Assembly (NCBI RefSeq): GCF_022374935.2
Contig: NZ_CP092430.2
Location: 2,852,001-2,916,000, forward strand
Direction of reading: 5' to 3'
DNA length: 64,000 bases
DNA from: Mycolicibacter virginiensis
Lineage (GTDB): Bacteria > Actinomycetota > Actinomycetes > Mycobacteriales > Mycobacteriaceae
Shown: positions 1,029 through 23,959 of the stretch, one piece after another
Numbering within the stretch: the first letter of the stretch is position 1
Layout of the letters: the number at the start of each line of letters is the position of its first letter
The notes under the pieces: model-generated
Told to the model about the DNA's origin: nothing
The model's input: the letters and a program-made list of their open reading frames with translations, nothing else
The model's database searches: none
Program-made: the position numbers and the translations under genes

Positions 1029-1580
1029 TCAGCTATTCACGGCTCCGCAGCCCGGCACCACGTGATCATCGCTGATGCTGTGCAGGTACCAGGTGTTGTC
1101 GACGTTGACCAGGCCGAGGGTGGCTTCTGATGCTCCCGGGGCACGCTGGGTGTCGGCGATGTTTTCGTACCACCAGTGGGTGTAGGTGTAGCAGACATTG
1201 AGCACGGCAGCGTGGTCGTGCGCTGACTGGACCTGCGCGTGGGCGACGGTCATCCCGTCGTTGCCGTGGGTGGTGCGAGCCTGCGGGTCGTACTCCCCCT
1301 GCCGGCCTAGTTGCCGTGCTGCGCTGCGGAGATCGGTGTAGGCAGCGCCGGTGTCCCCGGACCGGAGATTGGGGTCGATAACGGCGCGAAACTGCTCGGC
1401 GCCGGGACTCGATTGGGAGGGCTGCAGGTTGTACAAACTCACGGCCGGCCAGATGTCGTTGGTCAGACGGTTGATGATCTGTTGCTCGTTCACGCTGGGA
1501 TCTGCTTTCGCTGGTTCGTTGGGAGAACTGCACGCCAAGACGGCGACGAAAGGAATGGCGAGCGCCACTGCAAGTCTCAT
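1029..1580 (-). CDS. Putative lipoprotein, last gene of the WXG/NlpC operon
   Basis: A 183-residue protein with a short hydrophobic N-terminus ending in VLAC (Cys17), a plausible though imperfect lipobox. The mature part contains a Cys pair (near residues 129 and 178) and aromatic segments (YTYTHWWYENI), giving an impression of an NTF2-like or DUF4878-like extracellular fold; I cannot assign a family. Its ATG overlaps the stop of the upstream NlpC/P60 gene by four bases (ATGA), so the two are translationally coupled. It is probably exported and acts at the cell surface with that hydrolase. Confidence 0.65.
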   Translation of the reverse strand: MRLAVALAIPFVAVLACSSPNEPAKADPSVNEQQIINRLTNDIWPAVSLYNLQPSQSSPGAEQFRAVIDPNLRSGDTGAAYTDLRSAARQLGRQGEYDPQARTTHGNDGMTVAHAQVQSAHDHAAVLNVCYTYTHWWYENIADTQRAPGASEATLGLVNVDNTWYLHSISDDHVVPGCGAVNS

Positions 1581-2818
1581 GATGGCAACCTCAGGATGTT
1601 CGTATTTCCACGTCCAGTGCCGACCGAACCCACGCTTACCGGTGCACCTGACTCGGGAGCATGGATCATAAAGCCGTTGCCGACGTAGATGCCGGTGTGA
1701 TGAGTTCCTGTTCCCGGGTATTCGCCCGATCCCCCGAAGACAAGTACGTCGCCGGCCTGCGCTTGAGCGGCGGCTTGACCGCTGCTCAGACCACCCCCGC
1801 CGTCCGGGTGGATGAAGGTTGAGTTGGTATCGATCGCGTTGGTGCCCATGCCCGTGTCGAAGCCGGCGCCCTGCTGCACCGAGTAGCGGACCAGGCCGCC
1901 GCAGTCGTAGCCAATGCGGTTCGTATCTCCGTATGCGTCAGCGTCGCCGCCGTCGGGAACACCGCGTGTGGGGCCGTCGACCGACTGGTTGCCGCCCCAG
2001 GCGTAGGTGGTGTTCTGCTGGCTCGCCGCGTGAGCCAGGGCGTCGATCGCCGGATCACCAGTCGGTGTGCGCGGGTCCGGCAGCGGGTCGCCCGGGTTGA
2101 AGTTCGCCAGTCGATCACGCCACTCCTGCGCCGATAATCCGGACAGCAGCGGTGAGGGGTGCAGGTTGTCGGCGAGATGGCGGCTCACGTCGGGCGAGGC
2201 GTTGTCACGCGTTCCGACAGTCGGCGAGGGAACTTGACCGTTCTTGGCCGGCAGCGGAAGCTGATCCGCCGGGGTCTCCTTGCCCTGCCCCTCGTCTTTC
2301 GGCATCGGCGGGCCGTAGATCGGGCGGCCGTCGGGGGTGAGTTTGGTGTCACCGACCACGGCGCGGATCGCGGTGGCCAGGTCGCGGTCGGTCTGGTCGG
2401 CCTCGCTCATGAGCTTCGTCAGCCGGCGCTGCAGGGCGTCGAAGGCGTCGCGGTTGCGTTCGGTGACCTGCCCGCTGAGTTGCCCGGTCGGGCTGATCGA
2501 CCAGTTGTTGCTGGCCGCCGCAGATTTGATGGCGCCCCACTCGCTCTTGCACGCCGCGACCTCAGCTCGCGCGTAGGAGAACGCGTTGGCGATCGCGGTC
2601 GCCTCGACCTGCTGGTCGGTGATGTCGACGCGGTGCTTGCCGAGCTCTTGGCGGAAGGCGTCGCCGCCCTTGCCTTCCCAGTCTTTGAGCCCGTTGCCCG
2701 CCGCATCCAGTGTCGCGCCGAAGTCAGCTTTGCGCGCGGAGCGTTCCGTGGCGATCTCGAACACCGTGTCCAGGGTTCCCAGATTCCATTTCTCGATGCC
2801 GTCGGTGGTGATCGTCAT
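1577..2818 (-). CDS. NlpC/P60 cell-wall hydrolase with WXG-like N-terminal domain
   Basis: A 413-residue protein. Residues 1-160 are helical with W47-E-G49, resembling the WXG helical hairpin of type VII substrates. A Pro-rich linker (about 165-225) follows, then an NlpC/P60 domain from about 255. The catalytic Cys is C306 in YDCGGL (the family usually has YDCSGL), and the catalytic His is H373 or H374 in HHTGIYVG. NlpC/P60 enzymes cut the peptide stems of peptidoglycan. There is no classical signal peptide, which fits export as a type VII-like substrate. The gene starts 4 bases after the stop of the WXG100-like gene. Confidence 0.8.
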   Translation of the reverse strand: MTITTDGIEKWNLGTLDTVFEIATERSARKADFGATLDAAGNGLKDWEGKGGDAFRQELGKHRVDITDQQVEATAIANAFSYARAEVAACKSEWGAIKSAAASNNWSISPTGQLSGQVTERNRDAFDALQRRLTKLMSEADQTDRDLATAIRAVVGDTKLTPDGRPIYGPPMPKDEGQGKETPADQLPLPAKNGQVPSPTVGTRDNASPDVSRHLADNLHPSPLLSGLSAQEWRDRLANFNPGDPLPDPRTPTGDPAIDALAHAASQQNTTYAWGGNQSVDGPTRGVPDGGDADAYGDTNRIGYDCGGLVRYSVQQGAGFDTGMGTNAIDTNSTFIHPDGGGGLSSGQAAAQAQAGDVLVFGGSGEYPGTGTHHTGIYVGNGFMIHAPESGAPVSVGSVGTGRGNTNILRLPS

Positions 2819-2821
2819 CGG

Positions 2822-3160
2822 CTATTGCGCGCTGGGCGCCCGGGGAACCAGCACGGTGAATCGGTGGGCGTGCTGCTCTTCCATCTCCATGTAGAGCCGG
2901 CCGCCCTCGGACATCGCCGCGGAGAACGCGCTGATCCGCCCATGCAGCCGCGCGTCGGTCGTCTCCCAGTGCGCACCGAGCTCAGCTAGGGCTTCCGCGG
3001 AGCTCCCGGCCCAAGCCGCGACGCATTCGCCGACGTAGCCGGCGTGACGAGCGGCGAAGGTGCGCGACACCTCGGTGGCGTTGGCCACGTGGGTGGCGTG
3101 GCTGTCCAGCAGCGCCGGGCGAACCGCGAGTTTCGCGGGATCGATCGGGACTGAAGCCAT
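2822..3160 (-). CDS. WXG100-like small helical protein
   Basis: A 112-residue protein of two predicted helices with W50-A-G52 in the turn, the size and layout of WXG100 (EsxA/EsxB-type) proteins. It is the first gene of a three-gene operon with the NlpC/P60 hydrolase and a lipoprotein. By analogy with known pairs it may form a dimer with the WXG-like N-terminus of the downstream protein and promote its export through a chromosomal ESX system. That partnership is inference from gene order. No secretion ATPase is encoded nearby. Confidence 0.65.
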   Translation of the reverse strand: MASVPIDPAKLAVRPALLDSHATHVANATEVSRTFAARHAGYVGECVAAWAGSSAEALAELGAHWETTDARLHGRISAFSAAMSEGGRLYMEMEEQHAHRFTVLVPRAPSAQ

Positions 3161-5208: not shown

Positions 5209-5544
5209 ATGAAGTGGATCCCTGAAACCGACACCATGGAACTCACGGCGCGCAACATCACCGCGCTTACAGACAAACTCTCGGATCCGCTCAGCGCCAG
5301 GACCCTGATCAGCCCTGACCCGCATCGCATCCCCGTGACAGCCGTCGAATCCGCCGGCGCGGCCGAGGCAGTCGCGACGCCCGGCACCGTCTTTCTCACC
5401 CGGGCGCAGCTGCAGACGCTGGCCACCGAGGGGGCGACGGTGCGGGTCGGCGGTGTGCGGGTCCGCGCGGTGGCAGACGCTGAGCACTACCGCGATCGGG
5501 CGGCGGGTGAGGTGTACATGCCGAGCAGCGGTGAGCGACGCTAG
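5209..5544 (+). CDS. Hypothetical island protein
   Basis: A 111-residue protein. The C-terminal half reads like a small beta-rich domain (TLATEGATVRVGGVRVRAVAD). Its last bases overlap by four the end of the convergent 413-residue gene at 5541. No family recognised. Confidence 0.5.
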   Translation: MKWIPETDTMELTARNITALTDKLSDPLSARTLISPDPHRIPVTAVESAGAAEAVATPGTVFLTRAQLQTLATEGATVRVGGVRVRAVADAEHYRDRAAGEVYMPSSGERR

Positions 5545-6782
5545 CTGGCTTTTGACTCCGGCGGTTCATCGCCTCTCAGGATCGTCCCGCCGGGGACGAT
5601 TCCGTCGTCGTATGGCTCCGCCGCCTGCACGATCCGCGGCGCCTCACGGCCGGCACCTTTGCCGGCACCACCCATGCCTCCGCCCATCGGCGCCATCGGT
5701 GCGCCCATGCCCCCAGGCGCGGCCGCGGTGCCGGCGGCCTGCGCGGGCGCGGTGGAGGGCATGCCACCGGACAGGTTGACCTGCGGCGATGGGCGGCCGG
5801 TGACGTTGGTGCCCGTGACCAGGTCTTTCACGCTGTAGCCGGGGTTCGTGGCCCGCGGCGACAGCACCCCCACCGGGCTCGCGCCAGCACCGGCAGCACC
5901 GATGGCGCCGGCCAGGCCGGTGGGGGTGCTGTCGCCGCTGTCACGGCGTTTGTCAGCGGCCTTCGGTGTCGGTGTTCCGGTGGGGGCACCGCCAGCTGCT
6001 GCCTGCGGGTGCTGGCCCTGCTGCTGTTGGGGCTGGGCCTGGGGCTGTTGCTGACCCTGCGGGACCTGCGGCATCGTCGGCATCTCCGATTTCGACAGGT
6101 CGGTTCGGGGAGCTGTGCCGGCAGGGGTGGACGGCGCGGCACCAGCCGGAGTGCGTGGGGCAGCGGGGGTTCCGGGTGCGGGGGTGGATGGTGCCGAAAA
6201 TGCTGGGGGCTTGAGGGATCCGATGCTGTTGGAGATTCCAGGCAAGCGAGGCCGCGTGCCATCGATCTTGCTATGACTGTTCGCCTGCCGCTGCTGCTCA
6301 ACTTTGGTGGTCAATGTCGCCATGCCCGTCACGAAGGCCTCATCCGCTTCGGCGCGTTGCGCCCTCAACGTATTCGCGTACTGCAGCGCCGCTTTCGCCG
6401 CTGCCGCTGTAGATGCCTTTTGAGCGGGGGTTCCCAGTTCTTCCGCAGCTTGCATCGCACGTAGGGCTTGAGCCTTAGCGGCATCGGCAGCGTCGATGTC
6501 CGCGTCTTTGGGGGCCGAACCCTCCCAATGGGCTGCCAACTGTGCGGCTTCGTTCCCGGCTGCGCCGACCGCATAAGCCACCGCGGTCGTGCGGCCCACC
6601 TCCTGCCCACCCTGGTGAAGCGAGTCGACAGCGCGTGTGAGGCCGTCGCTGTCCCCCTCGGCTGCAATACCGTTCGCGCCGGATTGAAGGCCGCCCTCCA
6701 CACCGCCGGTGCTCGTACCGACCTGACGCGCTTGTCCAACGTTTCGTACAGCGGTGAAGTCAGGATCCTGGAACTCGCTCAT
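5541..6782 (-). CDS. Low-complexity Pro/Ala/Gly/Gln-rich protein with helical N-terminus, ESX-substrate-like
   Basis: A 413-residue protein. Residues 1-165 are Ala-rich helices with HWEG near residue 84, a W-x-G placed as in type VII-exported proteins. From about 185 onward it is disordered: Pro/Ala/Thr repeats, a Gln-rich run near 240-260 and Gly/Met-rich stretches. The layout recalls EspK/EspB-type secreted ESX proteins, but I see no sequence identity strong enough to name it. It is the last gene of the eight-gene operon that starts at 11380 and lies 48 bases after the protease gene. It has no signal peptide. Confidence 0.6.
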   Translation of the reverse strand: MSEFQDPDFTAVRNVGQARQVGTSTGGVEGGLQSGANGIAAEGDSDGLTRAVDSLHQGGQEVGRTTAVAYAVGAAGNEAAQLAAHWEGSAPKDADIDAADAAKAQALRAMQAAEELGTPAQKASTAAAAKAALQYANTLRAQRAEADEAFVTGMATLTTKVEQQRQANSHSKIDGTRPRLPGISNSIGSLKPPAFSAPSTPAPGTPAAPRTPAGAAPSTPAGTAPRTDLSKSEMPTMPQVPQGQQQPQAQPQQQQGQHPQAAAGGAPTGTPTPKAADKRRDSGDSTPTGLAGAIGAAGAGASPVGVLSPRATNPGYSVKDLVTGTNVTGRPSPQVNLSGGMPSTAPAQAAGTAAAPGGMGAPMAPMGGGMGGAGKGAGREAPRIVQAAEPYDDGIVPGGTILRGDEPPESKAS

Positions 6783-6830
6783 GCCCCTATTGTTCCAGCG
6801 GAACGCCCCGCAGCGGGTGTCCGGCGCGAC

Positions 6831-7682
6831 TTATCGGGCGGTAATCGCCTCAGCGCCAAGGCGGTCCAGGGCTGGGGCTAGATACGTGGCAGTCGATGCC
6901 AGCCTGTGATCGTCGCTGCTGGCCATGATCCCTATCAACCACGCAGATCCATCGGCATCGACGACGAACGCTGCGGCACCGGAATCCCCGCCCTTAGCGG
7001 TGCGCGCGAAATGCACACCACCCGGATCTGTCGCGCTCAGCAGGGGTCCACACGCAATTCCCGTCACAGCTCCGTAGAAGCAGATCGGCGTCTTCATCGG
7101 AAGATCGCGCACCTCAGATGCCATCAACGTTCCAGCTACAGGCCAAGTTCCAGCAAGAATCGATGCGCGGGCTCCTGTCGGCGTCCAAATCACAGCCGAA
7201 TCGTCTGCATAACCGGTGGCGGGATCAGGTATCCCATCGCTGTCGGCCGCATCGACAGCCACACCGAGGTCGTGTGCCGGCATACCATCAGGCCCGGTGA
7301 GCTGCTGAGGCCCGGTGGCATTCATCGCGCAGTGGCCTGCAGTCAGGAACCCCTGTCGGTCACCGGCGGTGATAGCAGGGCCAACTGTGCATCCAACGGT
7401 GCGTCCGTCGACAGTGTCGTGCGTGATAGTCGCTCCGGGACGGGGTGAGGAACTGTACTGGGTGCCCACCAGTGAATCGCGCGGCATCGACACGCCCTGA
7501 CCGGTGACATCGACCCACACCCGCTGATCCGCAACCGGAGCAACATCTTCCAGGGCCGCGGCCTTCAGCTCGCTCGACGGCCGCGCCTCTCCCGCGACCG
7601 TCGCGCTGCAGCCAGCGGACAGCGCGGTTACCGCCGCTGCTGCGAGAGCGGCGGCAACAGAGACTGCCGCACGACTGATCAT
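6831..7682 (-). CDS. Trypsin-like serine protease lipoprotein
   Basis: A 283-residue protein with an Ala-rich signal sequence ending LSAGC (Cys25), so probably a lipid-anchored surface protein. The chymotrypsin triad is visible: H117 in LTAGHC, D160 or D161 in YADDSAVIW, and S234 in GGDSG. Cys98/Cys118 and Cys201/Cys211 could form the usual disulfides. The family cuts peptide bonds outside the cytoplasm. It sits within the operon of WXG-like proteins, where known ESX loci carry a subtilisin-type mycosin instead. It may process the operon's own products; that role is inferred. Confidence 0.8.
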   Translation of the reverse strand: MISRAAVSVAAALAAAAVTALSAGCSATVAGEARPSSELKAAALEDVAPVADQRVWVDVTGQGVSMPRDSLVGTQYSSSPRPGATITHDTVDGRTVGCTVGPAITAGDRQGFLTAGHCAMNATGPQQLTGPDGMPAHDLGVAVDAADSDGIPDPATGYADDSAVIWTPTGARASILAGTWPVAGTLMASEVRDLPMKTPICFYGAVTGIACGPLLSATDPGGVHFARTAKGGDSGAAAFVVDADGSAWLIGIMASSDDHRLASTATYLAPALDRLGAEAITAR

Positions 7683-7699
7683 CTGTACATCATCCCACG

Positions 7700-8044
7700 T
7701 CAGCCAGCAGGCGTAGCCGAGATGTTTGCCGCCCTGGCATTTTGGATCGCTTCGAGACCGCCGTTCCAGGTACGCATGTCAAGCGTTGTCGACCGCAGAT
7801 GTGCGTGCGCCGCATCTGCTGCATCGGCCGCCTCGGTCATCGCTCCGCTCACCGCCGTGAGGAACTCGGCGATCGCTCCAGCAACCGAGCCGGTCGCCCC
7901 AGCTGCACCGGCGGCGGCCTCCTCCCCGTGCCGTCGAGCCTCCGCAGCAGCGTCGGGCAGCGGTGCGTACGCCGCTTCGATGTCAGACAGTTTCCGATTG
8001 AACCGGCCGAAGTCCTTGACTTCGACTTTCTTCTCGCCGGTCAT
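7700..8044 (-). CDS. WXG-like helical protein (operon gene 6)
   Basis: A 114-residue Ala-rich helical protein with a late W-N-G (RTWNGG, near residue 93). The ATG at 8044 lies one base after the stop of the upstream gene, and the gene ends 17 bases before the protease start. Size and composition match ESX-associated small substrates or chaperones. No family assignment is possible by eye. Confidence 0.55.
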   Translation of the reverse strand: MTGEKKVEVKDFGRFNRKLSDIEAAYAPLPDAAAEARRHGEEAAAGAAGATGSVAGAIAEFLTAVSGAMTEAADAADAAHAHLRSTTLDMRTWNGGLEAIQNARAANISATPAG

Positions 8045-8045
8045 G

Positions 8046-8354
8046 TCAGCCCTCCTCCCCCGCCAGTTCCTCGGTCGGCAACGCCCACTCGTCGGGCAAC
8101 GACTTACCCGGAACGAACGAGAGGTCGAATTCCACCAGCTCAACCAGATATTTGTGCAGCGCCGCGGCCAGCCGCTCGACGTGCTCCGCGGCTGCCTGGA
8201 TCGTCTGCGCCCCGCCGGATGCGGCCACGGCGGCATTCGCTGCTCGCAGCCCGACGATCGCTTCCCACAGCTCGGCGGGTTTCGTACGTTGATCGCCGAC
8301 GCCGATCTCCGGCGCCACCGCTGCTATTTGCTCCGCGCTCACTTTCTTTCTCAT
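8046..8354 (-). CDS. Small helical protein (operon gene 5)
   Basis: A 102-residue protein: a basic N-terminus (MRKKVS), a long amphipathic helix (near 30-75) and an acidic C-terminus (ALPTEELAGEEG). It follows the upstream gene by 8 bases and abuts the next. It could be a chaperone or partner for the neighbouring WXG-like proteins. Unknown family. Confidence 0.5.
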   Translation of the reverse strand: MRKKVSAEQIAAVAPEIGVGDQRTKPAELWEAIVGLRAANAAVAASGGAQTIQAAAEHVERLAAALHKYLVELVEFDLSFVPGKSLPDEWALPTEELAGEEG

Positions 8355-8362
8355 TCTCTCGG

Positions 8363-8686
8363 TTAGACGTTCTGAACTTCCTGCGCGCCAGTGCTATCGA
8401 TGTCCTGCATCCCGTTCACCAGCATTTCCAACTCCGCGAGCACCGCCTGCACCGCAGCGGCAGCAGCATCTACATGCGTCCCGCACCCTTCGATGCAGTT
8501 GCCCAACGCCGTCAGCGTCGTCCCGTAGACCGGGGCGGCGCCGTCCTCTCCCGCGGCCGCCTCGGCGGTCGCAGCAGCGACCTTGCTCCCGGCATCGCGC
8601 CTAGCCGGGATCTGCTGCGCCAACCCATTGAGCTGGGCCAGCACGCCCCTAAACCCCTCCCAGCTATGCACTTCGATGTCACCCAT
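8363..8686 (-). CDS. WXG-like helical protein (operon gene 4)
   Basis: A 107-residue protein with W9-E-G11 at the N-terminus, then two predicted helices, with a Cys pair (CIEGC, near 63-67). The ATG at 8686 overlaps the final base of the upstream stop, indicating coupling. It resembles WXG100-like proteins in size, though the W-x-G is unusually early. Confidence 0.55.
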   Translation of the reverse strand: MGDIEVHSWEGFRGVLAQLNGLAQQIPARRDAGSKVAAATAEAAAGEDGAAPVYGTTLTALGNCIEGCGTHVDAAAAAVQAVLAELEMLVNGMQDIDSTGAQEVQNV

Positions 8687-9066
8687 CAGTTCCCTTTCTC
8701 CATCTCGGCTTGGGCGTCGACCACGATCGCGTTGACCATGGTCACGAACCCCGGTCCGGGGGTGTAGGTGCGGGCCACAGCGTCGTAAACCTCTCCTCGC
8801 TCGACGAGGATGCGGCCTGTCGTGGCCTGCGGCATCCGCTTCACCGGCGCCCGCAGCGCCCGCAGATATTTCTCCATGTCCGTCATCACCGCCGCCAACT
8901 TTTGAGCCACTACCTGCTTTTGAGCCAGCGGCGACGGCTGCCGTGGCGGGAGCTCCAGCTGCACCACCGTGCCTTGCCCGGCGCAAGCCAGGGCACTGCC
9001 GACCGCGTGCATAAATATCTGGTCATCGCGGGTTGCACCCGTGATCGGTGGAATCTTCTGAGCCAT
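8686..9066 (-). CDS. Conserved-looking operon protein, possible ESX-associated chaperone
   Basis: A 126-residue protein, mixed helix and strand, with a central helix (QKQVVAQKLAAVMTDMEKYL). The ATG at 9066 overlaps the TGA of the 702-residue gene (TGATG). An alternative start three bases upstream exists. Nothing identifies a family; it lacks a W-x-G and signal peptide, which would suit a cytoplasmic chaperone. Confidence 0.5.
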   Translation of the reverse strand: MAQKIPPITGATRDDQIFMHAVGSALACAGQGTVVQLELPPRQPSPLAQKQVVAQKLAAVMTDMEKYLRALRAPVKRMPQATTGRILVERGEVYDAVARTYTPGPGFVTMVNAIVVDAQAEMEKGN

Positions 9067-11174
9067 CACTTCACCACCTTCGCGTCCATCGCCGACGGTG
9101 CCGCCGACGGAACGGATTCCTTCAACCCGGTGTCAGTGGCGCCGGCGTTCGCCGGCCCGCCGCCGTTACCTTGCGCCGGCACACCCGGCGTCCCAGCGGA
9201 CGTCACGCCGCTCGGGCTGGCATCGGCCGGCACCCCTGTCTGCGCGGTGCCGCCCGGCACCGGGTAGGACACGCTGGCGGGCGCCTGCCCGGAGACAGGA
9301 CCAGTCGCAGCGCCGCCCTGCGCTGGATCTAACAAGTGGAAATAGCCTGCGCGCGAGCCCATGTCGCGCGGTAGCTGATCCGCCGAGACCACGGTGTACG
9401 CCTCGGTGTCGTAGAACTGGCCGTCGCCGAGCAGCAGATACCTGTGGTCGCCCGCCACCAGGATGTCTCCCGGCTTGGCATCTGACGGCGCCACCTGCTG
9501 GCCTGGGTCCTGTCCGGGTGTCGGCGGCACCAGCCCGGCCTGCGCAGCTGCGTCGGCCAGGCTCAGCGGGTGCGCCGGGTCAGCCGCGGCCAAGAGCTGC
9601 GCCAACTTTGCGGTTCGTGGGTCGGGGAATACCGACTTGTGGCCCTTGACGTCTACCTCGGTGTTCGGCTTCAGCTCCGCAGCAGCGGGTTTCGCGCCGG
9701 ACTTGCCAGCAGCGGCGGGGCCGGTGGCATCCGCGGCGCCAGGAATCGGAGCGGCGGCCTTCTGCTGCACCGCGTCACCGCCGCTGAGTTTCGCTTTCTT
9801 CTCCGCCTTCTCGTCGTCGTCGACGAGCTTCTTACGATCTCCGTCGTCGACGAGCTTCTTGCCCTGCGGGGCGAGCGGGGACCCGCCACCCATCGGTGCG
9901 CCACCACCGTGGCCGAGCGGGGACCCGCCGCCCATCGGGGCGCCGCCCATGTGGGGAACGGTCGGCATCTGCGGCATCGCCTGCTTTCCCAGCTGCGACA
10001 GCAGCCTGTCGATGTCGCTTTGCTTCTCCGGCGTCTTGGCGGCTGGCGGCGCAGCAGGTGCGGCGGGAACCGTCGGCATCGCCGGCTTCGGCATCGGCAC
10101 CGCGACTGGTTTGCGATTGCCGACCAACGCCGCCCCGCCCGGCGCCAGAGGCGGTACGGGACTGTGGCTGAACAGCTGCGAGAGCTTCTCGTTCGAGGCC
10201 TTCATCGTGGTGGTCACCTGCTTCATCGCCGACTCCAGACTGGTGGCCGCGCCAGGGTCGGTCACGGATCCGCCGGCCAGCTGCCGGCGGATGTTGCCGT
10301 TCGTTTTCGTGACCGCTTCGTACCCGTGCTCGGCGGCGTCCGACGCGGCTTTCAATTCCGCCATGATCTTCTCGGTCTGAGACGGCAACTTCGCCATCGC
10401 GGCGAAGTGGCTCTGCAGCTGACTGCGAGCGCGCAGCATGTAGGGTTCACCGCTGCCCTGCAGCTGGCGGTCCAGCTGCGCAAACGTGTCGGCGATGCCC
10501 TTCAGCCAGGCATCCGTCGCGGCTTTGACCTCAGCCGTGTCCAACCTCAGCGGATCCGGCGGGGTCTGGCCCCAGACGGTGCCGCTGGGGCCATCCTTGA
10601 AAGCGAAGACCTTCTTGTTGGCGTCGGCCAGGGCCGTGTCCGCGACCTTCGCAACCTCAGCGGCGGCAGCGGGCAGCATAAAAGTTTTCACGCCATCCGG
10701 TGGCTCCCACTCACCGCAGGTGGAGCTAGAACCGCCGTGGGTGGCATCCCAGGCGGTGCCGGCGGCCATCCCGACCCAGCCGATCGGCCCAGGGATGGTC
10801 CCGACGAGGTTGAGGGCGCCGCCGACGATGTTTCCGCGCTCAAAGTCCTTCACCGCCAGGCTTCCCGCGGCCACGCTGCCCACCACGGGCAGCGCCCGCA
10901 TGCCGAATTTTGCTGCGGCACTGCCTAACAGAACCGGCGCTTTCTTCGAAGCGGCATCTGCCAGTTTGCCGCTGACCTGCCATTGGCTCTTGTACAGGCC
11001 CGGCACCTTTTTCACCCAGTCCGGCGCGGTGTACGGCGGCGGCGGCTTCGTGGCCGTGGCCTTCGCAGCACCGGCGGCGCCATTCACCCCGCCCTTGCCG
11101 CCGGCATCCTTCGGCAGCGGAACCTCTTCGGCGTCGATGATCCGCTCAGAATCGACATGCCTCGGCCCGCTCAC
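9066..11174 (-). CDS. Large 702-residue ESX-substrate-like protein
   Basis: The GTG at 11174 overlaps the TGA of the HTH gene (GTGA). The first 60 residues are polar. Residues about 60-150 are Gly/Ala-rich and hydrophobic (LPVVGSVAAGSLAVKDF...), followed by long helices to about 340. A disordered Pro/Gly/Met region (about 370-500) contains a duplicated GGAPMGGGSPL segment and two KKLVDD segments. The last 200 residues include a small folded stretch (PGDILVAGDHRYLLLGDGQFYD) reminiscent of non-catalytic NlpC-like or EspB/EspK C-terminal regions. It is probably an exported or envelope-associated effector. Function unknown. Confidence 0.6.
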   Translation of the reverse strand: MSGPRHVDSERIIDAEEVPLPKDAGGKGGVNGAAGAAKATATKPPPPYTAPDWVKKVPGLYKSQWQVSGKLADAASKKAPVLLGSAAAKFGMRALPVVGSVAAGSLAVKDFERGNIVGGALNLVGTIPGPIGWVGMAAGTAWDATHGGSSSTCGEWEPPDGVKTFMLPAAAAEVAKVADTALADANKKVFAFKDGPSGTVWGQTPPDPLRLDTAEVKAATDAWLKGIADTFAQLDRQLQGSGEPYMLRARSQLQSHFAAMAKLPSQTEKIMAELKAASDAAEHGYEAVTKTNGNIRRQLAGGSVTDPGAATSLESAMKQVTTTMKASNEKLSQLFSHSPVPPLAPGGAALVGNRKPVAVPMPKPAMPTVPAAPAAPPAAKTPEKQSDIDRLLSQLGKQAMPQMPTVPHMGGAPMGGGSPLGHGGGAPMGGGSPLAPQGKKLVDDGDRKKLVDDDEKAEKKAKLSGGDAVQQKAAAPIPGAADATGPAAAGKSGAKPAAAELKPNTEVDVKGHKSVFPDPRTAKLAQLLAAADPAHPLSLADAAAQAGLVPPTPGQDPGQQVAPSDAKPGDILVAGDHRYLLLGDGQFYDTEAYTVVSADQLPRDMGSRAGYFHLLDPAQGGAATGPVSGQAPASVSYPVPGGTAQTGVPADASPSGVTSAGTPGVPAQGNGGGPANAGATDTGLKESVPSAAPSAMDAKVVK

Positions 11175-11380
11175 CGTCCGACTCCTGCCTCGGCGAACTC
11201 GCCGGCGAACTCGAAGCTGTAACGCCTCACCGTGCTCGTGCTGATTCCCAACTCCGCCGCAATTTCGTCGATCGGCTCGCCAGCCTGTACGCGGCGGGCC
11301 ACCGCCCGACGCCCATCGGTGTCGGGGATCCGATACGCGAAGAACCTGCCTGGGATACCTCGCTGCTTCTCCATGCGCAC
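11171..11380 (-). CDS. Small HTH protein, first gene of the ESX-like operon
   Basis: A 69-residue protein with a clear helix-turn-helix (IDEIAAELGISTSTVRRY, about residues 37-54), like those of resolvases and sigma region 4. It is the first gene of the operon and overlaps the 702-residue gene. It is therefore a candidate autoregulator; a 9-bp perfect palindrome at 11603-11621 and its half site at 11404 are possible operators. A start at 11374 (MEKQ) is equally plausible. Confidence 0.65.
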   Translation of the reverse strand: MRMEKQRGIPGRFFAYRIPDTDGRRAVARRVQAGEPIDEIAAELGISTSTVRRYSFEFAGEFAEAGVGR

Positions 11381-14139: not shown

Positions 14140-15345
14140 ATGCACGTGGCGCGCATCCCCGATTACGTGACTGTGCTGGACCTGCCCAGCGGGCGGCGCT
14201 ATGAGGTGCGCGTCGAGACCACCGGCGCTGATGGCAAACGCAAGCAGTCGCGTCGCCGGTTCCGCAACCTCAAGCAAGCGGTGGACTACCACTCCGGCAT
14301 CACCGCCGACCGCAGTCGCGGCACGCACGTTGCGCCCGCCGACTTGACGGTGCAGCAGGCCGTCGAGGTGTGGCTCGACGGCCAGCGAATCCGGCCGAAA
14401 ACGATGAGCGCCTACATCACCGCGCTCCGTCCCGTAGTCGACCACCTCGGCGACCGGACTGTGCAGAGCATCACCAAAGCCGACATCGAGGCGGTGGTGA
14501 AGGCGCTACAGGCCGGGAAATCGCCGCTGGGCACGTGGCGTGGCGCGACGAAGCTGACCAAGGGCAGGAAGAAGATTCGCGCCGCCTGGTCAGCGAACAG
14601 CGTCAACCCGATGCTCGCCCGGCTCCGATCGATCTTCGAAGACCTTGTGAATCAGGGAATCTTGGTCCGGAACGTCGCCGCCTTGGTCAAGCCGATCCCC
14701 ACAAAACGTCCAGCCCTGAACACGCTCTCCGCCGAGCAGGTGAAGCAGCTGCTGGAGGCCACCGCTGACGACCCGTTCTGGATCGCGTGGGAGCTCGCCT
14801 GCTACGGACTGCGGCGGGGCGAGATTCTGGCACTCGACTGGCCCGCGGTGAACTTCAAAACAAACACGCTCGGCATCACAGCCGCCAGGCTCGCCACCGA
14901 AGGCGGATCCAGCACCGGCTCTCCGAAGACGGAGAGCAGCATCCGCACCCTCCCCATGCCTCCCGACCTCGCTGCGGCGCTACGTCGTGAACGCACCCGG
15001 CAGAAGGCGCTGCGACTGCAGCTCGGGTCAGCTTGGCCGGGCAGCGGAATGGTGGTGGTCGACGGCGTCGGTTCTCCCCCGCACCCCGACACGGTGACGC
15101 ACGCGTGGCGTGACGCTCTGGCCGGCGCAAAACTCCCCCACGTTCGACTGCACGACGCGCGGCATAGCTGCGCGACCCTGATGCACCTGAACGGAGTTCC
15201 GGCGGCCGTGATCGCGGCCTGGCTCGGCCACACCGATGCCCGGTTCACCTTGTCCGTCTATGCGCACTCGAATGACGACGCTCTGGCGTCTGCCGCGACC
15301 ACCATCGGCGGCATCGTCTCCGGCCGCGGCAACACCGCGAAATAG
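14140..15345 (+). CDS. Tyrosine recombinase (integrase) of island 1
   Basis: A 401-residue phage-type integrase. An AP2-like arm-binding region (about 1-60) is followed by a SAM-like core-binding domain (about 68-180) and the catalytic domain from about 190. Catalytic residues visible: R225 (GLRRGE), K263, H338 and R341 (HDARH), H364 (LGH) and the nucleophile Y374. It inserts or excises DNA at a tRNA gene. It ends 191 bases before the 3' end of tRNA-Val(CAC), its likely target. Confidence 0.9.
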   Translation: MHVARIPDYVTVLDLPSGRRYEVRVETTGADGKRKQSRRRFRNLKQAVDYHSGITADRSRGTHVAPADLTVQQAVEVWLDGQRIRPKTMSAYITALRPVVDHLGDRTVQSITKADIEAVVKALQAGKSPLGTWRGATKLTKGRKKIRAAWSANSVNPMLARLRSIFEDLVNQGILVRNVAALVKPIPTKRPALNTLSAEQVKQLLEATADDPFWIAWELACYGLRRGEILALDWPAVNFKTNTLGITAARLATEGGSSTGSPKTESSIRTLPMPPDLAAALRRERTRQKALRLQLGSAWPGSGMVVVDGVGSPPHPDTVTHAWRDALAGAKLPHVRLHDARHSCATLMHLNGVPAAVIAAWLGHTDARFTLSVYAHSNDDALASAATTIGGIVSGRGNTAK

Positions 15346-15502: not shown

Positions 15503-15530
15503 GAGAAAAACCACCCGTCACCAGGTGGCT
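15503..15530 (-). terminator. Terminator of tRNA-Val(CAC)
   Basis: On the minus strand a 7-bp stem (AGCCACC with GGTGGTT, one wobble) is followed by TTTTTCT, directly after the tRNA 3' end. The rest of the gap 15346-15536 holds several TGTCA repeats (15378, 15454, 15466) that could be integrase arm sites. Confidence 0.6.
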
Positions 15531-15536
15531 TTCTTG

Positions 15537-15608
15537 TGGTCCCGGCTGGGATCGAACCAGCGACCTTCCGCGTGTGAGGCGGACGCTCTCCCCCTGAGCT
15601 ACGAGACC
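15537..15608 (-). tRNA. tRNA-Val (anticodon CAC)
   Basis: The acceptor GGTCTCG pairs with CGGGACC, and the discriminator is A. The anticodon arm TCCGC-CTCACAC-GCGGA gives CAC. The T arm reads GGTTCGATCCC. CCA is not encoded. A minus-strand promoter is plausible upstream (TTGATA at 15650-15655, TAGTGT at 15625-15630, 19-base spacer). Confidence 0.95.
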
Positions 15609-15957: not shown

Positions 15958-16032
15958 GCGCGGTTAGCTCAGCGGGAGAGCGCTTCCCTGACACGGAAGA
16001 GGTCGCTGGTTCAATCCCAGTACCGCGCACCA
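15958..16032 (+). tRNA. tRNA-Val (anticodon GAC), attachment gene of island 2
   Basis: The acceptor GCGCGGT pairs with ACCGCGC. The anticodon arm CTTCC-CTGACAC-GGAAG gives GAC. The T arm reads GGTTCAATCCC, and CCA is encoded. Its last 27 bases plus one are duplicated at 30112-30139, so the gene was kept intact by the integration of island 2. Confidence 0.95.
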
Positions 16033-18136: not shown

Positions 18137-18421
18137 ATGACCGACCGCCGCGTGCCCATCGCCGAGGCCCGGGCGCGCCTGTCGGCGGTGATCAAGTCGG
18201 CCGCCGACGGTGACATCATCCTCATGAGTCACGGTCGGCCCGCCGCGGTGCTGATGTCGCCCGAGCACTACCGCTCGCTGCTGGATGAGCTTGATGACCT
18301 GCAGGACCGCTTGGGGGTGCTCGAAAGCCGAGACGCGCCAGCGGTGCCGTTCGATCAGGCGATGGCCGAGCTGGGCATTACTGACGAGGTCAGAAGTTCA
18401 CCGCCGCGACAGCGCCGTTAA
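18137..18421 (+). CDS. Phd/YefM-family antitoxin without adjacent toxin
   Basis: A 94-residue protein: VPIAEARARLSAVIKSAADGDIILMSHGRPAAVLMSPEHYRSLL is the Phd/YefM fold that binds DNA and neutralises a partner toxin. GGTATACC at 18128-18135, just before the ATG, is a possible operator. The gene runs 32 bases into the end of the convergent tape-measure gene, leaving no room for a RelE, Doc or PIN toxin downstream. Confidence 0.75.
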   Translation: MTDRRVPIAEARARLSAVIKSAADGDIILMSHGRPAAVLMSPEHYRSLLDELDDLQDRLGVLESRDAPAVPFDQAMAELGITDEVRSSPPRQRR

Positions 18422-21400
18422 GCGATCCCGAATTGATCATCCACATCGACTCATTCATCATTTCGCCCGGCGACTGGCCCGGGCCCGCGTAGATGGTGAG
18501 CTGTCCAACGCCCGGCGTGACCGTGTTGACGGAAGGCTTGTCGTAGAAGCGCATCCACGTCGGAACGTCGCCCGTCCGCTTGTCCAGGGGGTTCTGCTCG
18601 CTGTAGCTCGACATCGTGTCGTTGTTGGTGTTGAGCAGGAAGCGGATATCACCCATCAGGTCGCCCTGGCCGAATCCGACCAGACTGCTCATGAAGCGGC
18701 CGACGTAGGAACCGACGATGTGATAGATCTGTATGCCCAGCGTGATCGCCTGGTTGACGCCCTGGATCGCGCCCGACACGATCGACGCGATCTCGGAGAC
18801 GCCGCGCGCCGCCTCGCCGACCTGACCGCCGAACTCCTCTGGCGCCATGCTCGCGAAGTCGCCGACGGTGTTGGCGACATCGGCGACGGTGGTGGCGATG
18901 TTCGAGGCGAACGTGAGCCACTTCTGGGAGTTCTCAATGATCTTGACGACGTCTTCGCCGTTGCGCAGGCCATAGACCAGGCGATCGGCGGTATCCTGCG
19001 TCGCCCCAATCGCATCGACGCCTGACTTGATGTTGGCGAATACGTCGTTGACGATCTTGCCGATATTGCCGGCGCCCTGCTGGATCTGCTGCAGCGGGTT
19101 CTGCTGCGTGAAGCCATGCTCCTGCGAGATCGAGTTCTGCACCCGGGTCAGCGCCGCGATCTGGTCGGCGTTGCCATTCTCGTCCGTGGCCTTCAGCTGG
19201 GCGATGTTGCGCGAGATGTCGTTCAGGGTCGATCCGACCACTTCATCGGACGCACCGGGCGCCTGGGCGGCCGCAATCCGGTTTGCCAGCTCGGGGTCGC
19301 TGATGCCGTTCGGGTAGTTGGCCAGCATCGGGTTCTGGGCGCCGAGCGGGTACTGGCCGCGGTTGCCTGACCCGGGCGACGTTGTGCCGTAGCCGAAGTT
19401 GGGCAGTCCGCCAGGAGGCAAGGGCACGCCGGCCGGGATGACGAACAGGCCGGTTCCCGTCATCTGATTGTCAAATCCGGTGAACGCGTGAACGTGATCT
19501 TCGTGGCGAGTGGTAGGCCCGTTGCCAGTGCCGGCGATCGGCGTGTAGGACCGAGCTTGCTCCCCGGCGTTCTGGATCGTGTCATTCCAAATCGACCAGC
19601 TCAGGCCGAAAGCCTTCGCGTTGTCCTGCACGAACTTGTTGATCCGGTTTCCGAGCTCGACACCCTCGGGTGTCTGCTTGCCGATCACGTCGGTCATGAT
19701 GTCCAGCGCGCCACCCGAGCTGTGCTCATGTGAACCCGAGTCGTTCGCGCGGTACCCGCCGATCGTCAGGCCGCGGGCGCGCAGCTCGTCACCGAATACC
19801 GCAGTGACGGCGTTGTCGAGCAATTTGGCGTTCGGGGTGAGCTTGTCGCGATTCTGCGCCATGCCGGCCGGAAGCTTGCGGGCATCGATCAGACCCCTGG
19901 GCGCCCCGACGTCGAACTGCGGCACTACGACGGTGTTCGGGAGCACGTTCGGCAGCGCGCGCGTCGGCATTGGGATATTGCCCGGGCCGGGGGTGGTGTC
20001 GGTCGGCGTCGGGAGGCCGATGATGGGCGGCGTTGCGCCGGGGAGCACGTCAGCCCACGGCGGGGCCTGTCCTGCGGATTGCATCGCCGCGACAACGCGC
20101 TGCACGTAATCCGCCGGCTGGGCGTTGCCCTGCCAGTCGCTCGACAAACCGGCCTGCCCAACGACCTTGGCGATCCATTGGGCCAACTCCAGATCAGTGC
20201 CTCCCGCAGGGAAGGCTCCCGCGACGCTCTCTCGATCCTTGAACTGCTTAAGCAACGCGTCGACATGCGACTGCAGATCGGATGCGCCGCCGAGCTGCGC
20301 ATCGGTGAAACCGAGAGTTGGATTGCCCGACGGGTTGTTGCCCTCGACCTGACTGAAGCCCTGAATGAGCCGAATCTGCTCTGGGCTAACTCCCCGCCGC
20401 TTCAGTTCATCCACCAGCCCGGAGTCCGTGCCGGGGATCGACCGTGGCAAGTTCCCTGCGCCCGGCCCGAGAAGGTCTGCCCATGGGTCGCTCTTGCCGA
20501 TGCCGGTGCTCTTCCGGCGCGCCAGCTCCTCGTCGGAGATGGTCTTGTGCCAGACGGGGGTTACCAGGTCGCCACGGAAGCCGAGCAATCCCATAGCCAG
20601 GCTTGAGAATTGGCTAGCGAGGTCGCTCAGGCCCTGGCCGATGTCCCCGAACTGGCCGAAGCTCTTGGCAAAGCCCTTGAGGCCGCGGTTCTCGTCGAAC
20701 TGGTGGTTGAGGTAGGCGCTCAGGATGGAGTTGTCGGCGCCGGCGATGCGGTCGGGCAGCAGCGCGCCGCCCAGGGCGCTCGCGCCGCCTGCCGCCGGTG
20801 CGCCGGCGAATGCCCCTGCAGCTCCCGACATCACCGACGCCGCCGCGCCCGAGACCGATCCGGCGGCCGCGGTCATGCCCGCGGCCATGTCGGTGATCAT
20901 CTTGCGGCCGACAGTCCCGGTGTAGCCGTCGCCGGAGAACGGGCCCTTCTTGGCCGGCGAGTGCTGGAAGAAGTCGGAGATCCCGTGCATGATGCGCTTG
21001 GTCTGGTCAATAACGGCGCTGAGTCCAGTCGCGTCCATAAGGCCCTGCTTGAGGCCTTCGAGCAGCGCCTTGCCGCCATCCTCGCCGAGGCGCTTCAGCC
21101 CAGGCTTGACCGCGTCGCCGAGCTTAGTCAGCAAGCTGGTGAAGAAGTCCGTGATGCCGGTGCTGCCGTTGATCAGGCCGGTGATCACCGTGACGAAATC
21201 GCGGACGAATCCAATGATGATCGGCCAGTAAGGCTGCGTGGAGATCAGGAAGTCCGTGATCGAACCGAACAGCTTCGGCAACTGCGGACCAACGGAATTC
21301 ACCAGCTCCAGGAACGCCTGGGTGAGCGGCTGCAGTTGCGGCAGCAGCGCAACGAACGAATCCGACATCCCCTTAAAGAGCTGCGGCAACTGCGGGCCGA

Positions 21401-23045
21401 CCGACGCCATCAGTTGTGAGAACGCCGACGACAGCCCGATCAGGAACTGGTTGAGCGCCGGCGCCATGCCGGTAATGGCCGGCTCCAACTGGCCCATCGT
21501 CGCCGCGAAGGTGTTGAAGAACGTCTGCCAGCCCGGCGCGATCGCAATGCCCAGCTGGGTGAACGCGGTTGCCAGCGACACCAAGCCTTCCAGGATCGGC
21601 TGTAGCATCGGCGTGAACGCGTCAGTCGCCTCGCGCAGCACAGTGAAGAAGTCGATGAGCTTGCTCTGACCCTGCTCCGACTGCGTCCAGCCGTTGAGCT
21701 GCGCGGTGATCTTGTCCAGCCAGCCCAGCAGTCCCCCGCCGCCGAACCGATCGGCGATATCCATGATGTGGTTGAACGCGGCGCCGACCGAATAGACGAT
21801 GTTGATCAGGTGGCTGATTCCGTCGATGCCCGACTGAATCCAGCGCTGCAAGGAGCCGGACTGCGCGGCCTTGTCGATGACGTCGGAGAAGAATCCGAGC
21901 ATCTGCGAGATGCGGCCGCCGATCTGCTCAAAGAAGCTCGACCCGATGACGGTCAACTGCGTGAAGATCTTCAGTAGCGGGGCCATGGCCGGCGCCATCG
22001 CCTGCAGTCCCTTGGAGATGTTCTCGATGAACAGCTGGAAGCCCTGCATGATCTGCGGTTGCATCAGCAGGCCGGCGAATTGGTGCGCCATCTGCCCGTA
22101 CACGCCGGCCACTTGCGACATACCCTTGCCGAGGGCGGGCATCCACGTCTGGATCAACGGCTGAATGTCGTTGATGACCTGCTTGAAGAATGAGTCCTGA
22201 ATCGCCGCGGCGCCCAGCTTGAACTGGTTGCGGAACTGCGCGATCTGCAGCATGGCCTGGCCCGCGACCGGCCCCATGTTCTTGATGTCCTCAAGGAACT
22301 TCTTCGGGTCGTCGGCCATCATGTCTTTGAGCGCGTCCCCGACGCCGTGGAACGCGATCTTCAGGGTGCCCATCGAGAATCCAACGCCGGCGGCCGCGGC
22401 CGGCAGTAGGGCAAGGGCGCCGGTCAGCTGACGTACAGCGCCGGCCACCTGGGTCACACCCATCAGCCCGGCCGCGCCACCCAACCCCGCCAGGCCGCCG
22501 AGTGACGCGCCACCCAGCGCAAGTCCGCTGATCTTGCCGACGCTCATCTCAAAACTGGCGATGTGCTTGACGGCATTGCGCAAGTGCTGGTTGGTCTTTG
22601 CGGCGGCCTCACCGACGCCATCGAGGCCGAACTTGAACTTCTCGAGGGCGAGCGCGCCGGCCCGTGCCTCGGGGCCGAAGAAGCTCGCGGCGAGGGTTAG
22701 GCCGCGCAAAGCCTCGTGAAGCCGCTCTGCGGAATCGCCCGCAGCATCGGCGCCCTCGGCGAATCTGCCCATGTCGTCACGGGACTGGCGATGCGAATGG
22801 TGCAGGCGGACATGCGCCCGGTCCACGTCGTCGATGCGGCGCTCGTAGTGCTCTGCCGAATCGCCGGTGCGGTCGAACTCGCGTTCGGTGTCACGCAGGC
22901 TGCGTTGGGTTTTCGTCAGCGACGAGTCGAGGTTCTCTGAGGATGCCGCAGTGCGATCGAGATCGCGCGCAGCCTTCTGCGCGCCCGAGCTGTTGTACTC
23001 GATCTCGATCTTGCCGTGGGCGCGGCCGAGGCTGTAATCAGTCAA
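18390..23045 (-). CDS. Phage tape-measure-like protein with M15-type peptidase domain
   Basis: A 1551-residue protein from a TTG preceded by GGGAGG at good spacing; longer in-frame starts are Arg/Cys-rich and not protein-like. Coiled-coil segment (about 15-110), then hydrophobic Gly/Ala-rich segments (about 165-235), then repeated helical LPQLFKGM/GPQLPKLF blocks (to about 650), as in siphophage tape measures. At about 1050-1200 is a peptidoglycan peptidase-like domain with SHEHSSGGALDI and HEDHVHAF, the zinc-binding pattern of M15 enzymes. Such proteins set tail length and help DNA pass the wall. No other tail gene accompanies it. Confidence 0.8.
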   Translation of the reverse strand: MTDYSLGRAHGKIEIEYNSSGAQKAARDLDRTAASSENLDSSLTKTQRSLRDTEREFDRTGDSAEHYERRIDDVDRAHVRLHHSHRQSRDDMGRFAEGADAAGDSAERLHEALRGLTLAASFFGPEARAGALALEKFKFGLDGVGEAAAKTNQHLRNAVKHIASFEMSVGKISGLALGGASLGGLAGLGGAAGLMGVTQVAGAVRQLTGALALLPAAAAGVGFSMGTLKIAFHGVGDALKDMMADDPKKFLEDIKNMGPVAGQAMLQIAQFRNQFKLGAAAIQDSFFKQVINDIQPLIQTWMPALGKGMSQVAGVYGQMAHQFAGLLMQPQIMQGFQLFIENISKGLQAMAPAMAPLLKIFTQLTVIGSSFFEQIGGRISQMLGFFSDVIDKAAQSGSLQRWIQSGIDGISHLINIVYSVGAAFNHIMDIADRFGGGGLLGWLDKITAQLNGWTQSEQGQSKLIDFFTVLREATDAFTPMLQPILEGLVSLATAFTQLGIAIAPGWQTFFNTFAATMGQLEPAITGMAPALNQFLIGLSSAFSQLMASVGPQLPQLFKGMSDSFVALLPQLQPLTQAFLELVNSVGPQLPKLFGSITDFLISTQPYWPIIIGFVRDFVTVITGLINGSTGITDFFTSLLTKLGDAVKPGLKRLGEDGGKALLEGLKQGLMDATGLSAVIDQTKRIMHGISDFFQHSPAKKGPFSGDGYTGTVGRKMITDMAAGMTAAAGSVSGAAASVMSGAAGAFAGAPAAGGASALGGALLPDRIAGADNSILSAYLNHQFDENRGLKGFAKSFGQFGDIGQGLSDLASQFSSLAMGLLGFRGDLVTPVWHKTISDEELARRKSTGIGKSDPWADLLGPGAGNLPRSIPGTDSGLVDELKRRGVSPEQIRLIQGFSQVEGNNPSGNPTLGFTDAQLGGASDLQSHVDALLKQFKDRESVAGAFPAGGTDLELAQWIAKVVGQAGLSSDWQGNAQPADYVQRVVAAMQSAGQAPPWADVLPGATPPIIGLPTPTDTTPGPGNIPMPTRALPNVLPNTVVVPQFDVGAPRGLIDARKLPAGMAQNRDKLTPNAKLLDNAVTAVFGDELRARGLTIGGYRANDSGSHEHSSGGALDIMTDVIGKQTPEGVELGNRINKFVQDNAKAFGLSWSIWNDTIQNAGEQARSYTPIAGTGNGPTTRHEDHVHAFTGFDNQMTGTGLFVIPAGVPLPPGGLPNFGYGTTSPGSGNRGQYPLGAQNPMLANYPNGISDPELANRIAAAQAPGASDEVVGSTLNDISRNIAQLKATDENGNADQIAALTRVQNSISQEHGFTQQNPLQQIQQGAGNIGKIVNDVFANIKSGVDAIGATQDTADRLVYGLRNGEDVVKIIENSQKWLTFASNIATTVADVANTVGDFASMAPEEFGGQVGEAARGVSEIASIVSGAIQGVNQAITLGIQIYHIVGSYVGRFMSSLVGFGQGDLMGDIRFLLNTNNDTMSSYSEQNPLDKRTGDVPTWMRFYDKPSVNTVTPGVGQLTIYAGPGQSPGEMMNESMWMINSGSLNGAVAAVNF

Positions 23046-23427
23046 CGGAGGACCTCCCTGATGCCGCGGTGCCTGAGTCACCCAGCTCGTCAACGGCACG
23101 GCCGGGATAGGCGAATCGGGCTGTGGAAGGCCGCACCGTGTCATCGACCTCAACGACGACGGCGGCGACGTCCGGCCGTGTCCATGGCAGTCCCCACTTG
23201 GACGCCGGCAGCGGCACCACAACGGGCCTGCCCTGCTCCAGCGCATCAAGCAGGCGCCGCGATCGCCGAAATTTCTCCGCAGGCTCCTCACCGCGGCAAG
23301 CCGCCGGTGTGTACCGCCAACGCGGGTCGTGGCGTCGGCACGCCTCGCGTTCGTCGTCCAACAACGACGCGTACAGGCCCGGTGCGCGAAACCCGCGTAC
23401 CCCGCCGAGAGCCCTAATTCGCGGCAT
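23038..23427 (-). CDS. Hypothetical protein upstream of the tape-measure gene
   Basis: A 129-residue basic protein; the ATG at 23427 has GAGGTGGG about 8 bases upstream, and a start at 23454 is possible. Its stop overlaps the tape-measure start by 8 bases, so the two are coupled. The position suggests a tail-assembly function, but the sequence (LLDALEQGRPVVVPLPASKWGLPW) resembles no chaperone I know. Confidence 0.5.
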   Translation of the reverse strand: MPRIRALGGVRGFRAPGLYASLLDDEREACRRHDPRWRYTPAACRGEEPAEKFRRSRRLLDALEQGRPVVVPLPASKWGLPWTRPDVAAVVVEVDDTVRPSTARFAYPGRAVDELGDSGTAASGRSSVD

Positions 23428-23959
23428 TGCGCGCCCACCTCGTATTCGCGGCACGCTGGGCCTTCACTGATGTCAGCGACGGGGCCGCCGGCAGGTCCGT
23501 GTGCACCCGCCTCAGCATCCGGTCCACCGCCGTCTCCAGCAGACGAATCTCGCCCGCCAGCTTTACCCGGATCTTGTCGTCGTCGGTGGCACGGTAGCTG
23601 CCATAGAGGTCAGCTCTCCGGTCGATGGCGGCAGCGATCATCTCCAAAGTGGCCAGCTCGACCGCCGACCATTCCAGCGGCTGATCGGGCGGCAACCCCA
23701 TCGCGTCCGACTTCTGGGCCAGCTCGGTGTTGAGCGCCTGGAGCAGCGCCATCGCGTCCGGCCCATGGGCATGCGGCCCGTGCTTGAAACCGGCAGCCGA
23801 TCGCGACCGTGCCGTTTCTGTAACGCCCTGAGCGTTACGGTTGTCACATCGGCGGCCGCGGTGCGCGCGCTGCCTGCAGGCAGCGGAACAGTATTGAGCC
23901 CGCGCACGACCGATGAACTTGTCGCCGCAGGTCACGCACGTTCGCTTAGCACCAGTCAT
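23414..23959 (-). CDS. Zinc-finger protein, possible terminase-small-subunit-like
   Basis: A 181-residue protein. The N-terminal CVTCGDKF...YCSAACRQRAHR is a four-Cys zinc knuckle; the rest is helical, with acidic and basic stretches and a KIRVKLAGEIRLLETAVDRML coiled segment. Similar Cys-knuckle proteins occur in actinophage packaging or replication modules. It overlaps the next gene by 14 bases. Assignment weak. Confidence 0.5.
   Translation of the reverse strand: MTGAKRTCVTCGDKFIGRARAQYCSAACRQRAHRGRRCDNRNAQGVTETARSRSAAGFKHGPHAHGPDAMALLQALNTELAQKSDAMGLPPDQPLEWSAVELATLEMIAAAIDRRADLYGSYRATDDDKIRVKLAGEIRLLETAVDRMLRRVHTDLPAAPSLTSVKAQRAANTRWARNAAN

Follow-up and report, generated by a model that had tools for sequence, protein, structure and literature searches.

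The closest described relatives of the locus reported here are mobile elements of actinobacteria. Integrative and conjugative elements (ICEs) and plasmids of the Mycobacteriales may carry an ESX (type VII) secretion system of their own; ICEMyc226 and pCBMA213_2 are examples (PMC7478629). Actinomycete integrative and conjugative elements (AICEs) are detected by their integrase, Prim-Pol and FtsK-type genes (PMC3218068). Mycobacterial prophages carry cassettes of a toxin, an immunity protein and a WXG100 protein without an ESX core, termed phage-encoded ESX-secreted toxins (PEST; PMC10654092). On the recipient side, ESX-1 and ESX-4 have been reported to be needed in M. smegmatis, and ESX-1 not to be needed in tubercle bacilli (PMC8262963). 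Here, we report an eight-gene operon in a 64,000-nucleotide stretch of the Mycolicibacter virginiensis genome (NZ_CP092430.2, positions 2,852,001 to 2,916,000; hereafter the window, to which coordinates refer). It lies on a genomic island that, judged from its genes, is AICE-like, and its families are shared with PPE- and ESX-bearing plasmid-like elements. The original prediction took it for a mobile cassette of ESX substrates that has no ESX core and brings its own protease; we find this supported in its genomic half only, and the operon products are possibly exported by an ESX system of the host.

The operon, its second copy and its island

The operon runs on the minus strand from 11380 to 5541 and comprises eight open reading frames (ORFs), all of them open, separated by −4, −4, −1, +8, +1, +17 and +48 bases.

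11171..11380, minus: A, 69-aa helix-turn-helix (HTH) protein, first operon gene; PF13384 HTH_23 above cut-off
9066..11174, minus: B, 702 aa; family in 20 of 396 genomes; described from a structure model and hydropathy
8686..9069, minus: C, 127 aa, family adjoining B; present in this island, the second island, genome G189 and seven of eight PPE-type loci (defined below)
8363..8686, minus: D, 107 aa, D/F family of small proteins (sequence clustering and profiles)
8046..8354, minus: E, 102 aa, without a relative in the other B-bearing stretches
7700..8044, minus: F, 114 aa, D/F family (sequence clustering and profiles)
6831..7682, minus: G, 283-aa S1-type serine protease, probable lipoprotein (triad motifs, hydrophobic start, linkage to B)
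5541..6782, minus: H, 413 aa, N-terminal helical hairpin and low-complexity tail (38-row alignment, model)

B occurs at two places in the 4.98-Mb genome. At the second, around 466.7-473.1 kb, the order A-B-C-D-x-F-G-H is kept, with amino-acid identities to the window of 57% (A), 64% (B), 72% (C), 62% (D), 43% (F), 42% (G) and 54% (H); therefore, the operon ORFs are not chance ORFs, and the predicted eight-gene operon is real. An unrelated 227-aa ORF occupies the place of E, for which there was no match in the other 23 B-bearing stretches (the protein database was not searched with E). An A-like match lies near B in the second island and in genomes G242, G279, G313 and G394a. Further genes on both sides of the operon are common to the two islands, including an NlpC/P60 protein and a 112-aa WXG100-like neighbour. 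The interval first proposed, 5541..11380, thus holds the operon and is only part of the island, which extends from window coordinate −28,914 to 15,581.

The limits of the island are set by a 61-bp repeat that overlaps the 3' half of tRNA-Val(CAC) and has an exact copy at −28914, bounding 44.4 kb.

15521..15581, no strand: right attachment (att) repeat, identical 61 bp at window coordinate −28914
14140..15345, plus: tyrosine integrase of the island (family match)

The island also encodes a 942-aa Prim-Pol/DUF3987 protein (PF09250, 32.6 bits against a cut-off of 22.8) and a 653-aa HerA/FtsK-type protein (PF01935, 27.7 bits against 23.2; PF01580 marginal). When its joined flanks were compared with 118 genomes, some match was found in 113, most of those listed being the tRNA end only; the site is empty and contiguous in one, G077 (9-561 of 561 bases, 86%), and the own genome matches partially at two ends. 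The second island spans 50.4 kb between 21-bp repeats at 461783 and 512168, and its joined flanks match in 57 of the 118 genomes, contiguously in 55 and split in the own genome and in G022. In the latter, ~3.1 kb interrupt the att site (G022:C1:516466-520138), which may therefore serve a further element too. Att repeats, integrase, empty sites in relatives and a second island bear out the claim of mobility. Neither island contains EccB or EccD, in agreement with the predicted lack of an ESX core, whereas the genome has five EccB loci (six matches) and five EccD matches. Searches of phage and plasmid records with the window DNA returned tRNA matches and one 41-bp match only.

Genomic settings of the B family

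With a single protein query, B was found in nine of the 198 genomes of the genus; a profile found it in 20 of 396, own genome and fragments included, adding fragments in G012 and G174 among the 198. Three plasmid records contain it (two of Tsukamurella, one of M. avium), and no phage record does at E <= 0.01. A scan of named genomes gave eight B loci, among them those of Gordonia effusa, Mycolicibacterium austroafricanum, M. canariasense, Mycolicibacillus koreensis and Mycobacteroides franklinii.

We compared the settings of 24 B-bearing stretches of 8 to 80 kb each, using queries that include proteins from several of those loci and, outside the annotated plasmid, gene calls from a simple ORF caller. 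Eight stretches carry both PPE- and SLT-type genes and are called PPE-type; fifteen, in which none of the PPE, SLT and Ecc queries used found a match, are compact; the remaining one, an 8-kb contig (G293), was not assignable to either setting. Since the split was made from gene content, the contrast in PPE genes (8/8 against 0/15) is a definition and not a test. ESX core matches share the stretch with B in four of the eight PPE-type loci (G156, G123, G188, G377); G188 has EccA, EccB, an EccC-type FtsK/SpoIIIE protein, EccD, a mycosin-type subtilase and EccE. There are no ecc matches in the 36.5 kb (G214) and 22 kb (D16Q14) examined, where the label rests on PPE and SLT genes, nor in the 80 kb (G086) and 60 kb (G037) stretches; in G086, the contig that carries B also has EccB and EccD, at distances from it of ~96 kb and ~89 kb. 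On the Tsukamurella plasmid NZ_LR134450.1, B is flanked by SLT, Prim-Pol and PPE genes, and a type IV secretion system (T4SS) conjugative-transfer protein, mycP and eccD lie within 16 kb (record annotation). The predicted link to ESX therefore holds as gene neighbourhood only: the families are co-located with PPE and ESX genes on plasmid-like elements. Within the compact group, a G-type protease is found within 12 kb of B in 13 of 15 loci; it is missing in G242 and G174, and weak (1e-8) in G394b. B is truncated to fragments in G132, G012, G174 and G394b.

In a tree of 20 B proteins (nine PPE-type, eleven compact), the settings are mixed, with six changes, at least two of them forced by starred branches; the direction of change is not readable and G188 forms a very long branch. 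A single compact clade is rejected by the approximately unbiased test (p-AU 0.00015; 0.00065 without the long G394a row), and in a shuffle control 182 of 500 shuffles were as low for the compact group, i.e. there is no clustering by setting. The operon families occur repeatedly, both with an ESX core and without one.

Operon proteins and island neighbours

Protease G is linked to B. Its motifs TAGHC, DDSA and GGDSGA supply H117, D160 or D161, and S234; of 19 G-type rows, all retain the Ser motif, 18 the His motif and, less clearly, 14 the Asp motif. Its hydrophobic start ends in ALSAGC, a lipobox whose −3 residue is Ser and which falls outside the pattern used, while the second-island copy has a standard VSGC; G is probably a lipoprotein. 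The lipid-anchored protease with an intact triad that had been proposed is therefore upheld in its triad motifs, with the Asp being one of two residues, and is probable in its anchor. Protease matches at E <= 1e-15, a cut set after the list was seen, occur in seven of the 198 genomes, all within the nine that carry B (chance 1.7e-11); at E <= 1e-5 they occur in 83, a reflection of how widespread the broader S1 family is. The scan gave no protease match in G012, although a relative belonging to another clade lies next to the B fragment there. An H-type match was present in 14 loci, and in every one of them G is no more than 1.1 kb away from it. This co-occurrence across genomes and loci supports the claim that a non-mycosin protease is tied to the cassette. 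Second protease paralogues in G123, G086 and G037 share a contig with a low-scoring EccB gene, at distances of 36, 37 and 80 kb, respectively; in G123 and G037, where B sits on another contig, the contig with paralogue and EccB may belong to the same element as B.

Protein H has W86 and A90-P91 at the turn of its N-terminal hairpin, followed by the low-complexity tail. These residues are kept in the alignment of H with 37 H-type proteins; in a nine-row set, the exceptions were F for W in G279 and the lack of A-P in G123. The turn W is conserved, the G of W-x-G that follows is not. A protein search with the H N-terminus matched only the window's own protein, and a fold search with its model returned long-helix proteins such as BAR domains, with no ESX protein among the matches listed, which excludes nothing. 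In G132, F-like and H frames are fused in one 605-aa ORF; as the sole case, in an otherwise truncated locus, it was not used as evidence.

From its model and hydropathy, B has a hydrophobic Gly-rich stretch (~88-156; present in 50 of 52 B rows), a helical domain (~170-343), a disordered linker and a C-terminal domain (~502-617). Of the 59 columns that are invariant across the 52 rows, 26 fall within residues 501-617. The modelled helical domain is possibly PPE-like, and the C-terminal domain probably has an NlpC/P60 fold without the catalytic Cys: no Cys occurs within 502-617 in any of the 52 rows. The sequence of B did not match NlpC/P60 models, no row matched PF00823 (PPE) at E <= 0.1, and a PDB sequence search gave a single chance-level match.

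The four short proteins had been described as helical, three of them with W-x-G. Two, D and F, do have it; the third W-x-G lies in H, and the motif is not conserved in relatives (3/9 D/F rows, 0/5 F-like rows, 0/10 C rows, 2/14 H rows). D clusters with F and, by profile, also with small proteins of PPE-type and compact elements. None of the operon proteins reached the cut-off of PF06013 (WXG100). A separate WXG100 profile comparison is not relied on, since its set held three ORFs that are probably not WXG100 proteins (L052_6, L059_9, L062_11), and the verdict therefore rests on the Pfam results alone. Plain WXG proteins are thus rejected on sequence, with neither a Pfam match nor a conserved motif; the motif argument fails, though the operon stands.

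Outside the operon, the following features were recorded.

2822..3160, minus: 112-aa WXG100-like protein, island companion; PF06013 E 6.7e-4, 20.3 bits, under the cut-off of 27.3; 84% identical in the second island
1577..2818, minus: 413-aa NlpC/P60 protein, Cys and His motifs present; PF00877; 81% identical in the second island
18390..23438, minus: tape-measure gene of the adjoining prophage-like element
28799..29926, minus: tyrosine integrase of the adjoining prophage-like element

The pair at 1577-3160 is a more convincing ESX-type pair than anything within the operon. A housekeeping gene of leuA type, for 2-isopropylmalate synthase, is found in both islands (window coordinate −6582 to −4759, L068:13418-15241; genome 486887-488713), with products 92% identical between islands and a third copy at 4.516 Mb. 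Our island also encodes a MurB-like protein (L068:15700-16800) and a DNA methylase with an Mrr-type domain (L068:11459-13204); the second has a run of small secreted-type paralogues (L011:17663-19918) and, near its integrase, a gene (L011:7567-8124) whose product resembles an orotate phosphoribosyltransferase. Directly beside our island lies the 14-kb prophage-like element, bounded by a 28-bp repeat of the tRNA-Val(GAC) 3' end (16006-16033 and 30112-30139).

Possible functions and comparison with known systems

The reading we prefer, at about even confidence, is that the operon is a surface or transfer-accessory kit of an AICE-like integrative element, its families being common with PPE/ESX plasmid-like elements of Mycobacteriales. 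In the mechanism that we envisage, the HTH protein A would regulate the operon, and B, D, F and H would leave the cytoplasm, most likely via one of the ESX systems of the host, which its five EccB loci make available. Export by ESX is inferred because the proteins, while lacking an evident signal peptide, are linked to a probably extracytoplasmic protease and to PPE and ESX genes. B might be retained in the envelope by peptidoglycan binding of its Cys-less NlpC/P60-like domain and by its hydrophobic segment. Mycosin trims some ESX substrates; G, probably membrane-anchored, may act outside the membrane and trim B or H in their disordered linkers. The assembled proteins could then aid cell-cell contact or DNA passage while the island translocase moves the element. 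We are least sure of export by ESX and of the operon serving transfer instead of competition or exclusion. A tentative extension, which we hold to be possible though short of probable, is a split, host-dependent conjugation: ESX-less AICE-like islands would export an envelope kit shared with ESX plasmids through the host ESX so as to bring their DNA through the mycomembrane, and a trypsin-like protease of their own would stand in for an element-encoded mycosin.

Several observations weigh against the transfer-kit reading. The Y-x3-[DE] export motif occurs in none of 15 D/F rows and none of 10 C rows; it is found in 25 of 38 H rows, and the window H has F150 at that place. None of the 15 D/F-set members scores with WXG100, EspC or PE in Pfam and, with the W-x-G motif unconserved, ESX export of the operon proteins is therefore only plausible. 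The likeness of B to PPE proteins is confined to the fold, where Foldseek gave nothing at E <= 0.001 and unrelated helical proteins such as arfaptin scored equally well, and an NlpC/P60 protein was absent from the 50 Foldseek rows listed for B, appearing only in the VIA second look. The PF01580 (FtsK) match of the island protein lies barely above its cut-off (24.9 bits against 24). Finally, a Gordonia carrier showed a single EccB locus (genome completeness not given), so carriage needs no plurality of ESX systems; EccB is present in all nine genomes tested, and its presence is therefore no test of borrowing.

Three other explanations were weighed. The operon might be a competition or exclusion kit with no part in DNA transfer, guarding its element by surface exclusion or by immunity against sister elements, or acting against neighbours in a PEST-like manner. 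Toxin-type mobile cassettes of ESX substrates without a core are known from mycobacterial prophages (PMC10654092), the hydrophobic Gly-rich stretch of B could insert into membranes, and two sister islands coexist in one genome. However, PEST toxins vary C-terminally, whereas B is highly invariant at 501-617 and probably has a Cys-less NlpC/P60 fold there; no toxin family matched B or H in the family searches, an immunity gene not having been looked for; and the operon families also occur on plasmids with conjugative-transfer and ESX genes. We regard this kit as unlikely, and a PEST-type toxin is not favoured.

The lack of an ESX core and the truncation of B in several related loci would also fit decay: the operon would be what is left of an ESX plasmid after recombination into an integrative element, now functionless and kept by chance. 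Such decay is hard to reconcile with eight open ORFs whose order and frames are kept in a second copy at 42-72% protein identity, with the retention of the Ser, His and, less clearly, Asp motifs of the protease, and with the recurrence of B and a G-type protease in compact loci, and we consider it quite improbable. The adjacent prophage-like element (window 16-30 kb) with its tape-measure gene raises the question of a phage virion or lysis module, an outcome that the original prediction had named as counting against it. It came out negative: none of the proteins C to H matched PHROG, for B there was no more than a weak tape-measure match (E 0.097), no phage record has B at E <= 0.01, and island and prophage-like element have different tRNA att repeats. 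This module is rejected, its probability being close to nil.

The transfer-kit reading bears on how conjugative elements cross the mycobacterial outer membrane. The locus offers a natural experiment, with a compact operon, families with and without an ESX core and a tightly linked, probably extracytoplasmic protease; it defines a few named proteins that can be examined one by one for their export route and their effect on transfer.

In comparison with known systems, the ESX-bearing conjugative-type plasmids and ICEs of Mycobacteriales are the nearest in gene content, as the Tsukamurella plasmid carries B amid SLT, Prim-Pol, PPE, ESX and T4SS genes; the island differs in being 44 kb long with an integrase and a tRNA att site, in the F-protease-H block beside B and in having no ESX core, PPE or SLT matches. 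With AICEs (PMC3218068) it shares the tyrosine integrase, the tRNA att site, the Prim-Pol replication gene and the FtsK/SpoIIIE-type protein, but AICE transfer is described there as the work of a single translocase, and the terms 'ESX' and 'type VII' occur zero times in the main text of that article. PEST cassettes (PMC10654092) are likewise mobile and carry ESX-type substrates without an ESX core, but they are prophage-borne sets of toxin, immunity and WXG100 genes, whereas the operon includes a protease and a conserved B that matched no toxin, and none of its products matched WXG100. G resembles the Rv1815-type serine proteinase (NF051463) in its S1-type catalytic region (33 bits), but falls far under the cut-off of 175, and its strong relatives are tied to B elements. 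Residues 502-617 of B, from the model, probably share the fold of NlpC/P60 proteins without the catalytic Cys, such as the 'NlpC_inact_RipD' family, with the difference that B has no sequence match to NlpC/P60 models. In the parts of the literature searched, which include PMC7478629, PMC8190616, PMC3218068, PMC10654092 and PMC8262963 and exclude supplements, we found no description of the operon or of AICE-like islands bearing it, in line with the claim of a composition not described before; mobile ESX-substrate cassettes without a core, by contrast, are already in print as PEST. What is new is the combination of known kinds, companions of ESX plasmids on an AICE-like island.

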